Source of the DNA: an uncultured Blautia sp.
GTDB taxonomy: Bacteria; Bacillota; Clostridia; Lachnospirales; Lachnospiraceae
DNA length: 43,911 nucleotides
Assembly: GCA_945864225.1 (NCBI GenBank)
Contig: CAMBAL010000016.1
Span: forward strand, 1 to 43,911
Direction of reading: 5' to 3'
The translations under genes were made by a program, and so were the position numbers. Below are positions 18,740 to 41,317 of the stretch, piece by piece. The notes beneath the pieces are model-generated. The model was not told the origin of the DNA. It did not search any database and saw only the letters and a program-made list of their open reading frames with translations. The stretch's first letter is position 1, and each line of letters starts with the position of its first letter.

Positions 18740-20437
18740 TTATGCGACAGCTTTTTTGCTATCCTTTTTTTCCAGCAGTTTTTTAACACCCTGTACAGCA
18801 ACGATCACACCGAGGATCAGAAGCAGTACAGCAAAGATCAGCTGCAGGGTATTTCCAAGACTGAGACCGGTAGTCATGAATGCTTTGGAAAGTTTCACAA
18901 TAGTCATGGACAATGCTGTAAAAGTAACTGCCATCATGAATGCCATTGGAATCCACAGCATGCATCCCTGACGTTTGGTCTTTTTCAGGAATACTGCACA
19001 GGCAACCAGTGCCAAGACAGATAACAGCTGGTTTGCGGAACCAAACAGCGGCCAGATTTCCGCATATCCCACTTTTGCCAGCAGATATGCCAGTACCAGA
19101 GTAATTACTGTTGCAAAATATTTATTGGTTACAACTTTCAGGAATGGGCTCATATTGTTTTCATCCACATCATCGTCAATGAAAAATTCCTGGAAAGACA
19201 GACGTCCCACACGTGCTACAGAGTCCAGAGAAGTCAGCGCAAACGCGGAAACTGCCAGGTTGATCAGGGTAAATACCAGATCATGAGGAAGTCCTGCAAC
19301 TGACAGGAAATTTGCGATAGCTCCGGCAAAAATCTGTGGCTGTGTAGTCAGGCCCTGCGCTGCAGCTTCTCCCTTTCCGAAAGATGCAACAGCGATCAGA
19401 GCAATGATTGCCAGCATACTTTCCATCAACATGGCACCGAAAGATACCGGCAGCATACTCTTTTCATTTTTTACCTGTTTGGAAGCAGTACCGGAAGATA
19501 CCAGTGAATGGAAACCGGAAACTGCACCGCAGGCGATGGTTACAAACAGGATCGGGAACAGATACTGTCCATCTACATTAAATCCATTGAAAGCTTCCAG
19601 ATTGCAGGAAGGATTTGCAACAAATACACCGATCACAGCGCCAACGATCATAAAAATCAGCAGGTAACTGTTCAGGTAGTCACGCGGCTGAAGCAGGGCC
19701 CATACAGGAACAACGCAGGCAATCAGTATGTACGCAAAAATGATGATATGCCATGTTCCGCGCTCCAGATACACCGGAAATTTCAGTCCCAATGCAACTG
19801 CAACCACCAGCATAACAATTGCAATCGCTGTGTTGACCCATTTATTCAATTTTGCATATTTCAAAATCATTCCCAAAACCACTGCCTCAAGAATGAAAAG
19901 CATAGAAGTCGTTGCAACAGCACCGTTTGCGGTTATTTTGGAAACTACGCCGGCTTCATCTGCAGTGAATCCGTTGAAAGTTCCGGCAACAACGTCTGCA
20001 AATGCAGCGATTACCAGAATACAGAACAGCCAGCAGAACAGCAGGAACAGTTTCTTTCCCAGCTTACCAATATATTCTTCAATGATGTATCCAATGGTAC
20101 GTCCTTTGTTTTTTACAGACGCATACATAGCAGCAAAATCCTGCACTGCTCCAAAAAATACACCACCGATCAGGATCCATAACATAACCGGAAGCCAGCC
20201 AAAAATAGCTGCCTGAATCGGTCCATTGATCGGACCTGCGCCGGCAATCGACGCAAACTGATGACCAAATACAACGTTGGTATCAGCAGGTACATAATCG
20301 ACTCCGTCCTCCAATTCATAGGCAGGAGTCTTTGCCTTGGGATCAATTCCCCATTTGTTCTGAAGATAACGTCCATACAGAAGATATGCTCCTCCAAGAA
20401 CTACGATGGCGATTACCATCATCAAAATTCCACTCAT
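18740..20437 (-). CDS. cstA: CstA-family carbon starvation transporter
   Basis: A 565-residue polytopic membrane protein, shorter than the roughly 700-residue E. coli CstA. Landmarks: an N-terminal membrane helix, GHQFASIAGAGPINGP, FGAVQDFAAMYAS, IIEEYIGKLGKKLF, CGAVSGFHSLVSSGTASKQ and a C-terminal LLLILGVIVAVQGVKKLLEK. CstA-type proteins have been linked to peptide and pyruvate uptake. ATG 20437 is chosen because AAAGGGAGAG precedes it; the open frame extends 67 codons into the T-box leader and that part is not coding. Expression is controlled by the T-box leader at 20470-20762, tying it to tRNA charging, which favours an amino acid or peptide substrate here. A decayed second copy lies at 40592-40868. 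Confidence 0.92.
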   Translation of the reverse strand: MSGILMMVIAIVVLGGAYLLYGRYLQNKWGIDPKAKTPAYELEDGVDYVPADTNVVFGHQFASIAGAGPINGPIQAAIFGWLPVMLWILIGGVFFGAVQDFAAMYASVKNKGRTIGYIIEEYIGKLGKKLFLLFCWLFCILVIAAFADVVAGTFNGFTADEAGVVSKITANGAVATTSMLFILEAVVLGMILKYAKLNKWVNTAIAIVMLVVAVALGLKFPVYLERGTWHIIIFAYILIACVVPVWALLQPRDYLNSYLLIFMIVGAVIGVFVANPSCNLEAFNGFNVDGQYLFPILFVTIACGAVSGFHSLVSSGTASKQVKNEKSMLPVSFGAMLMESMLAIIALIAVASFGKGEAAAQGLTTQPQIFAGAIANFLSVAGLPHDLVFTLINLAVSAFALTSLDSVARVGRLSFQEFFIDDDVDENNMSPFLKVVTNKYFATVITLVLAYLLAKVGYAEIWPLFGSANQLLSVLALVACAVFLKKTKRQGCMLWIPMAFMMAVTFTALSMTIVKLSKAFMTTGLSLGNTLQLIFAVLLLILGVIVAVQGVKKLLEKKDSKKAVA

Positions 20438-20469
20438 GATGTCTCTCCCTTTCTTTAAGTAAAAATATA

Positions 20470-20762
20470 TATAAAAAAACGCCCTTACAGTCCCATCCCG
20501 GGATTGCAAAGGCGGAATTTTCCGTGGTACCACTCTGCTTGCTGCAGGCAGCTGCAGCCTCTCATTACCGTCATAAAGAACATCTCTGCACCATCTTATG
20601 TAACGGTTTCTCCTGTAACGTGGAGAATACGTCCTCATCTACTGGCATATCTGCGTTCAAAAGGAAGCTCCGGGGTGATGTCACCAAAAGGCCCTCTGCC
20701 GCTTCGCACCATACAGCGGTTCTCTGAAATCAGGTATCTTCTCGTGATGTGTCCCTTTCAAT
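20470..20762 (-). ncRNA. T-box leader upstream of cstA
   Basis: On the minus strand the leader has Stem I features (AGAGAACCGC, distal loop TATGGTGCGAAGC, AGTAGATGAGGACGT), a linker, the T-box GAGTGGTACCACGG (20522-20536), and a terminator in which CGCCTT pairs with AAGGGCG before seven T residues (20474-20512). The specifier is most likely TTC (20664-20666, Phe) within GGAGCTTCCTTTTGAACG, judged by alignment to known Stem I patterns; CTT (Leu) one base earlier is possible. The TGGT bulge pairs with a tRNA ending ACCA, compatible with both. Uncharged tRNA should allow read-through into cstA. Confidence 0.92.
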
Positions 20763-20788
20763 GCTTTAACTATTTAAAGGATGTATAT

Positions 20789-20817
20789 GTTTTACACCCA
20801 TTTCCCCAAAAACGCAA
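20789..20817 (-). promoter_or_regulatory. probable promoter of the T-box/cstA transcript
   Basis: TTGCGT (20812-20817) and TAAAAC (20789-20794) are 17 bases apart on the minus strand, about 27 bases before Stem I. The relic copy keeps the same arrangement (TTGCTT, 17 bases, AAAAAC), which supports the call. Confidence 0.5.
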
Positions 20818-40591: not shown

Positions 40592-40868
40592 TTATGCTGC
40601 TGCTTTTTTCCCTTCCGTTTTTTCCAGAAGTTTCTTTACACCCTGTACTGCAACGATCACACCAAGGATCAAAAGCAGATTTCAGAATCATTCCCAGTGC
40701 AACTGCTTCAAGAATGAACAGCATGGAGGTCGTTGCAACAGCGCCGTTTGCTGTTATCTTGGAAACCACGCCGGCTTCATCCGCGGTAAATCCGTTGAAG
40801 GTTCCTGCTACAACGTCTGCAAATGCAGCGATTACCAGGATACAGAACAGCCAGCCAAAGATTGCTGC
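40592..40868 (-). pseudogene. internally deleted second copy of cstA
   Basis: Three pieces of cstA are joined on the minus strand. First, AAIFGWL (residues near 75-80 of the intact protein); then CILVIAAFADVVAGTFNG to LEAVALGMILK (matching the middle); then, in another frame, LLLILGVIVAVQGVKKLLEK to the stop TAA at 40594-40592. The first junction lies at GGCTGGC, a sequence present at both parental sites, which suggests deletion between short direct repeats. The fusion at the second junction is out of frame. It is preceded by a degraded T-box leader. The intact gene is at 18740-20437. Confidence 0.88.
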
Positions 40869-41140
40869 ATCTATCTGCAGCCTCTCATTACCGTCTTAAA
40901 GAACCCTTCTGCCCTCCTCTGCAAAACCAGCTCATCACATCCGCTCTGAGCTGCATCTTATCCTGCAGGGTCTTATGCAACGGTCTCTCCTGTAACGTGT
41001 AGAATACGTCCTCGTCTACTGACATTTCTGCGTTCAAAAGGAAGCTCCGGGATGATATCACACAAAAGGCGCTCTGCCGCTTCGCACCATATTGCGGTTC
41101 TCTGAAATCAAGTATCTTCTCGTGATGTGTCCCCTTCAAC
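40869..41140 (-). pseudogene. degenerate T-box leader of the cstA relic
   Basis: Stem I is nearly identical to the functional leader: GACACATCACGAGAAGATAC, AGAGAACCGC, TATGGTGCGAAGCGGCAGAG, CGGAGCTTCCTTTTGAACGC, AGTAGACGAGGACGT. The T-box GAGTGGTACC and the terminator are missing, because the sequence jumps from GAGAGGCTGCAG into cstA coding sequence. It cannot work as a T-box switch. A promoter-like TTGCTT, 17 bases, AAAAAC remains upstream. Confidence 0.85.
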
Positions 41141-41317
41141 GCTTTAACTATTAAAAAAATGTATATGTTTTTCACCTATTAGAGATAAAAAGCAAGATTA
41201 TATTTATACATATTTCACAGTTTTGTTCCTATGTTTTTTGTGCAAAATATCTTTCTTCCATTATCCCCGGATGGGCACAAACAAAGTCCAGCAGCGCGCT
41301 AGATCCCTTTAAACGTA

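Follow-up and report, generated by a model that had tools for sequence, protein, structure and literature searches.

The window analyzed here, a stretch of 43,911 nucleotides from an uncultured Blautia sp. (contig C16 of a host draft genome that is 84% complete), carries on its minus strand the gene for a transporter of the CstA family, preceded by a long structured leader (Table 1). Like the E. coli pyruvate/H+ symporter CstA (with YbdD), the protein belongs to family PF02554; unlike that symporter, it comprises 565 rather than 701 aa, and the two share 32% identity across 576 columns. Against the NCBIfam equivalog for the pyruvate/proton symporter CstA it scores 240.5 bits and is thus below the cut-off of 1188, the YbdD partner gene was found in 0 of 10 Blautia genomes searched, and a sequence search found no solved CstA structure.

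Table 1. Features of the cstA locus and of a second, degenerate copy, in window coordinates
Feature	Position	Strand	Basis
cstA, CstA family transporter, 565 aa	18740..20437	minus	PF02554, 2e-147, 492.7 bits
Shine-Dalgarno-like AGGGAG of cstA	20445..20450	minus	sequence
Intrinsic terminator hairpin and U7	20473..20514	minus	fold, -21.5 kcal/mol
T-box leader RNA before cstA	20505..20770	minus	RF00230, 87.7 bits, E 8.7e-20, model 1-219 of 219
Antiterminator, GCAGAG/CUUUGC helix with UGGU bulge	20506..20538	minus	fold, alignment
UGGU, can pair with tRNA ACCA end (A73)	20529..20532	minus	sequence
Stem I, proximal helix to GAGC end	20666..20765	minus	consensus fold, 40 of 69 leaders
Specifier AUC (isoleucine)	20677..20679	minus	9 nt before the GAG ending Stem I; loop flanked by two covarying helices
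Stem I AGAGA motif	20721..20725	minus	invariant across 40 aligned leaders
Compact specifier loop, 5' strand, ACACA (without AGUA)	20748..20752	minus	alignment
Candidate promoter, TTGCGT-17 nt-TAAAAC (putative)	20789..20817	minus	sequence
Decayed T-box-cstA copy	40592..41218	minus	promoter region, Stem I with AUC, internal and C-terminal cstA fragments

As originally predicted, a T-box lies upstream of cstA, seen as a full-length match, and we regard this part of the reading as nearly certain: the match to RF00230, the T-box sequence, the antiterminator and the terminator hairpin were all found. The covariance search proposed with that prediction matched the leader over the whole model, at a score just under the gathering score of 93, and for this reason the default Rfam scan missed it. 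The sole element listed by that scan was a TPP riboswitch (14114-14007, minus strand), which lies upstream of a thiC-like gene (named by eye). Leaders before cstA in relatives scored 102.9 (G001), 105.4 (G055) and 89.4 bits (G004), the first two exceeding the gathering score, and the host genome gave 12 T-box matches at E values up to 1, of which 11 were at 1.4e-8 or better. A simple consensus scan at the leader detected neither promoter nor terminator; the spacing TTG...17 nt...TAAAAC recurs upstream in two relatives (L014 and L018), and the terminator stem, which has a mismatch, nonetheless folds at -21.5 kcal/mol immediately 5' of the U7 tract. The strand CCGCCUUUGC is common to the antiterminator and the terminator, making the two mutually exclusive, and both are intact inside the 101 nt upstream of the cstA start codon.

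The specifier was identified by a simple rule, namely the codon nine bases 5' of the GAG closing Stem I. For T-boxes of the host itself, the rule applied by script gave GUA for valS, UAC for tyrS, ACU for thrS and UGG for trpE, and applied by eye, where the script failed, AUC for ileS, CCG for proS and AUG for metG. Among relatives, where six genomes yielded 70 T-box matches, 30 of them with loci, and genes were named by eye, it gave UUC for pheS (5/5), UAC for tyrS (3/3), CUC or CUG for leuA (6/6) and GUA for ilvB (4/4); the weaker cases were valS, with GUA in one of two and failure in the other, and leuS, which was recovered only as a second choice. In addition to the three host genes, script calls failed for L247 (leuS) and L260 (valS), and all of these except L260 were read by eye. 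The same rule reads AUC, isoleucine, in the window leader. The expected specifier had been TTC (Phe), with CTT (Leu) as the alternative, and neither is borne out here: the specifier-loop alignment did locate the codon, and it is AUC that sits in the loop. Both TTC and CTT were rejected because they are found in GGAGCTTCC, where Stem I ends or immediately beyond that point on the 3' side; CAU (His) and the other frames were rejected because the base 5' of the codon varies among relatives while AUC, CUC or GUC is kept. A tRNA-Ile(GAU) was found in the relatives G004 and G052, with base 73 read as A in G004; a pattern search did not find it in the host draft.

The arrangement recurs in relatives. 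A scan of 222 upstream stretches with a T-box pattern gave 84 positives, the same detector being positive on 144 of 11100 Markov sequences; removal of duplicates left 71 and removal by hand of two false positives (L191 and L202) left 69 distinct cstA leaders. Their specifiers are AUC (Ile) in 58, CUC (Leu) in 10 and GUC (Val) in one, five of them (L030, L139, L157, L167 and L169) having been read by hand; UUC, a single base change away from all three, occurs in none of the 69, and UGGU is present in every one. Because every leader carries one of these three codons, the CstA clade appears to answer to branched-chain amino acids.

A T-box precedes cstA at 35 of 80 named loci. The survey of Lachnospiraceae orthologues suggested by the original prediction, in which 90 of 124 matches were examined (the 34 left out being mostly the weakest, including two partial ones above 50% identity), recovered the leader before 35 of the 57 genes that are at least 50% identical to that of the window: 11 of 12 above 80% identity, 2 of 8 at 67-73% and 22 of 37 at 50-57%. 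None of 33 loci at 46-51% identity (L178-L210) carries a T-box, two false positives having been dropped, and none was found at the 28 cstA loci examined in a phylum-wide sample (37 matches, the window's own included). Within the genus, 13 of the 14 cstA genes with 85-100% identity and an intact start have the leader (L013-L025); no T-box precedes L026 (95% identical), one is present before L030 (51% identical), and in L031 leader and gene are both broken. No T-box was found at L038 and L148; the upstream stretch is short in L038, L134, L143 and L148. A quick, unrooted tree built from 135 CstA proteins places the T-box bearers in a single supported group; it holds 107 rows, and for 62 of them no T-box was detected. 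Gains are indistinguishable from losses in this tree, and the specifier changed at least five times along it. At 20 T-box-less cstA loci, no other riboswitch reached gathering; the only RNA elements to do so were two tRNAs, both in L066, and the T-box that L074 carries 1.3 kb upstream of its cstA.

Conservation of the fold can be followed through this set. Alignment of Stem I in 40 of the 69 leaders places the specifier columns in a loop between two helices; 18 of 19 predicted pairs changed on both sides, 90.5% of cells pair compared with 73.1% in shuffles, and 154 cells show a change on both sides compared with 51.8 in shuffles, with 0 of 500 shuffles as high. In the antiterminator helix (26 leaders), 4 of 9 pairs changed on both sides, a number that 83 of 500 shuffles reach, and the covariation score was reached by 0 of 500. 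A hairpin of -10 kcal/mol or lower stands directly before at least four U residues in 68 of 69 leaders. These leaders resemble the transcriptional T-box of RF00230 in having Stem I with AGAGA, a specifier loop, a UGGN antiterminator and a terminator; they differ from it in their unusual target gene and in a compact specifier loop (5+5 aligned nt; the window has ACACA facing CAUCA), with AGUA absent from the Stem I 5' strand in 65 of 69.

AGUA, together with GAA, forms the S-turn of the specifier loop. An AGTA motif, predicted at the outset as part of the leader, is present in the hairpin after Stem I, where it aligns with an AGUA of the model, and is absent from the specifier loop of Stem I. 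In the 44 nt before AGAGA, AGUA occurs in 4 of the 69 cstA leaders, not all at the loop, as against 32 of 37 other T-boxes of Blautia genomes (first 45 nt tested). Since the remaining 5 of those 37 also lack it, we do not treat AGUA as defining for a T-box. Four pheS T-boxes in Blautia genomes (L255, L256, L257 and L262) are likewise without AGUA in the Stem I 5' strand. The compact loop provides a natural test of how far anticodon reading needs AGUA.

A T-box upstream of cstA1 has been described in Bacillus methanolicus MGA3 (PMC4342826); the likeness to our leader was judged by description only. In the available text of that report, no amino acid was assigned to the element and the authors doubted that it controls cstA1, and our literature search found a T-box before cstA in this source alone, although earlier T-box listings may include others; a word search of the main text of PMC2494555 (Wels 2008) gave no mention of CstA. 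The window leader might, in the same way, be a relic without control over cstA, and such a history would sit well with the decayed copy present in the same window and with the many clade members without a T-box. We nevertheless consider this very improbable, because antiterminator and terminator are intact here and the same parts, covarying, are found in dozens of relatives. The decayed copy has lost its antiterminator, terminator and most of cstA, and it sits where a 97% relative (L043) has an intact gene; the two flanks of this site show 92% and 88% identity. The intact copy (20875-18733) is 86% identical to L043 from the promoter region through the gene end, suggesting joint movement of the switch and its gene as a single module. 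A T-box-cstA pairing that had been reported once and doubted is widely supported by the survey.

By analogy with the T-box family, the cstA leader would act as a transcription-attenuating switch reading tRNA-Ile(GAU): when this tRNA is charged, the terminator would form and cstA would be off; when it is uncharged, it would pair with AUC and UGGU, the antiterminator would be stabilized, and cstA would be made. The response to a single uncharged tRNA that was originally predicted is to be expected from the leader anatomy, which recurs in relatives, with isoleucine taking the place of phenylalanine or leucine. Such control is unlike that of E. coli cstA, which involves CRP and CsrA according to the available text of PMC7730263. 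Production of CstA would presumably raise the supply of isoleucine, along with valine and leucine through shared enzymes, and its most likely cargo would be a 2-oxo acid for the ilv pathway, i.e., pyruvate, 2-oxobutyrate or a branched-chain 2-oxo acid. We believe that this combination, an isoleucine T-box on cstA and import by CstA of a 2-oxo acid feeding Ile/Val/Leu synthesis, is probably correct; that the protein takes up rather than exports its substrate, and what that substrate would be, is inferred.

Synthesis of branched-chain amino acids starts from 2-oxo acids, pyruvate among them, and ilvC and ilvD occur in a few of the neighborhoods seen; a 2-oxo acid is therefore no less likely as the imported substrate than an amino acid or peptide. 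In L118 (725-5426), from an Elusimicrobiota MAG, Candidatus Parendomicrobium reticulitermitis, cstA is flanked by ilvC and by a gene that resembles ilvD (named by eye), with no T-box detected; in L102, ilvC adjoins cstA in convergent orientation. These are the only two of 167 cstA loci where ilvB, ilvC, ilvD or leuA was found as a neighbor, counted over short flanks and with duplicates included. In Blautia, none of the 70 T-box matches from six genomes (with 116 first-look candidates scored in each) lay near ilvC.

Isoleucine T-boxes also precede other carriers. In the Blautia genomes seen, valine T-boxes precede ilvB, leucine T-boxes leuA, and isoleucine T-boxes ileS, cstA and, in three genomes, a TRAP transporter. 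The host TRAP unit behind its AUC T-box (L211, 987-4912, contig C23) encodes DctQ, then DctM fused to two DctP domains. For one of these DctP domains, the best solved relative by sequence is 4p8b. The T-box 1.3 kb upstream of the T-box-less cstA of L074 precedes a gene for a BASS-family symporter, and in 13 of 14 loci of its close relatives (L280-L293) a T-box reading AUC by eye was found; four of the 13 checked with Rfam scored 114 to 150 bits. At L285, where no T-box was found, the leader retains a terminator-like hairpin, possibly a remnant. The locus L287 (409-2823, minus strand) holds, in order, T-box, BASS gene, ilvC and the start of ilvD. Isoleucine T-boxes on three unrelated carriers, two of which are in places beside ilv genes, argue for a supply of 2-oxo acids.

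Characterized members of these families, as described in the available text of the sources cited, point in the same direction: E. coli CstA imports pyruvate, and no tested compound other than pyruvate and bromopyruvate competes (PMC7730263); pyruvate is carried by BASS2, and 2-keto acids are carried by BASS5 (PMC10645422); and the TRAP proteins, whose ligands are many, have one member that binds pyruvate and also count 2-acetolactate among their ligands (PMC5812351). That some members of all three families carry or bind pyruvate or related acids favors 2-oxo acid uptake over peptide uptake. Counting against it, the ASBT of Neisseria, a BASS relative, binds pantoate and not ketopantoate, again in the available text (PMC10645422). 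The scarcity of ilv genes beside cstA, the host draft without ilvC, the low identity to E. coli CstA, the absence of YbdD and the majority of clade rows without a detected T-box also speak against the 2-oxo acid reading. Alanine is made directly from pyruvate. It is never the specifier, and import of plain pyruvate fits this less well.

The original prediction held that the cargo of CstA here goes beyond pyruvate to an amino acid or peptide; what stands of this is the link to amino acids, which is to the branched-chain ones alone. Import of these amino acids themselves, with CstA in place of BrnQ, would explain why the specifiers are exactly Ile, Leu and Val, and BrnQ was not found in 9 of 10 Blautia genomes with T-box-cstA, an absence that equally fits CstA as an amino-acid importer. 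T-box specifiers have, moreover, already been used to predict transporter substrates, according to the available text of PMC2494555. We consider this alternative unlikely, albeit worth retaining, because the ilv neighbors, like the BASS and TRAP families, suggest organic acids as cargo. We know of no CstA relative that carries free amino acids, which also counts against it. Uptake of peptides as a source of branched-chain residues seems to us more doubtful still. In its favor, older work on cstA mutants of E. coli, Campylobacter and Salmonella, cited in the available text of PMC5847655 and PMC7730263, described phenotypes in peptide use. Against it, there is no need for a general peptide importer to respond to Ile, Leu or Val alone, and the pyruvate specificity of E. 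coli CstA is very narrow (PMC7730263, available text). Neighbors of cstA were read by eye, and nearby peptidases may exist.

We tentatively propose, with somewhat more doubt than belief, a tRNA-sensed oxo-acid salvage regulon in Lachnospiraceae, in which branched-chain T-boxes would control three unrelated carriers, CstA, BASS and TRAP, all of them importing 2-oxo acids for Ile/Val/Leu synthesis, the cstA branch being read by a compact, AGUA-less T-box that has undergone repeated codon switches between Ile, Leu and Val. The T-boxes seen in this clade, answering to Ile, Leu or Val only, allow the disputed substrate of CstA (pyruvate, peptides or other) to be approached through its regulation. 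The substrates predicted by the 2-oxo acid reading are open to assay, and gut anaerobes may, on this reading, scavenge 2-oxo acids for branched-chain amino acid synthesis.

Auxotrophy for branched-chain amino acids was considered as a cause of the arrangement, given that ilvC was not found in the host draft, and was rejected, since ilvC is present in 51 of 60 genus genomes overall. The gap in the host may reflect incompleteness of the draft: in the relative G004, a pheS T-box, a leuA T-box and ilvC all lie inside 17 kb, so one missing stretch could explain it. Among the 14 genus genomes with T-box-cstA, 13 carry ilvC, and imported precursors could therefore be used.
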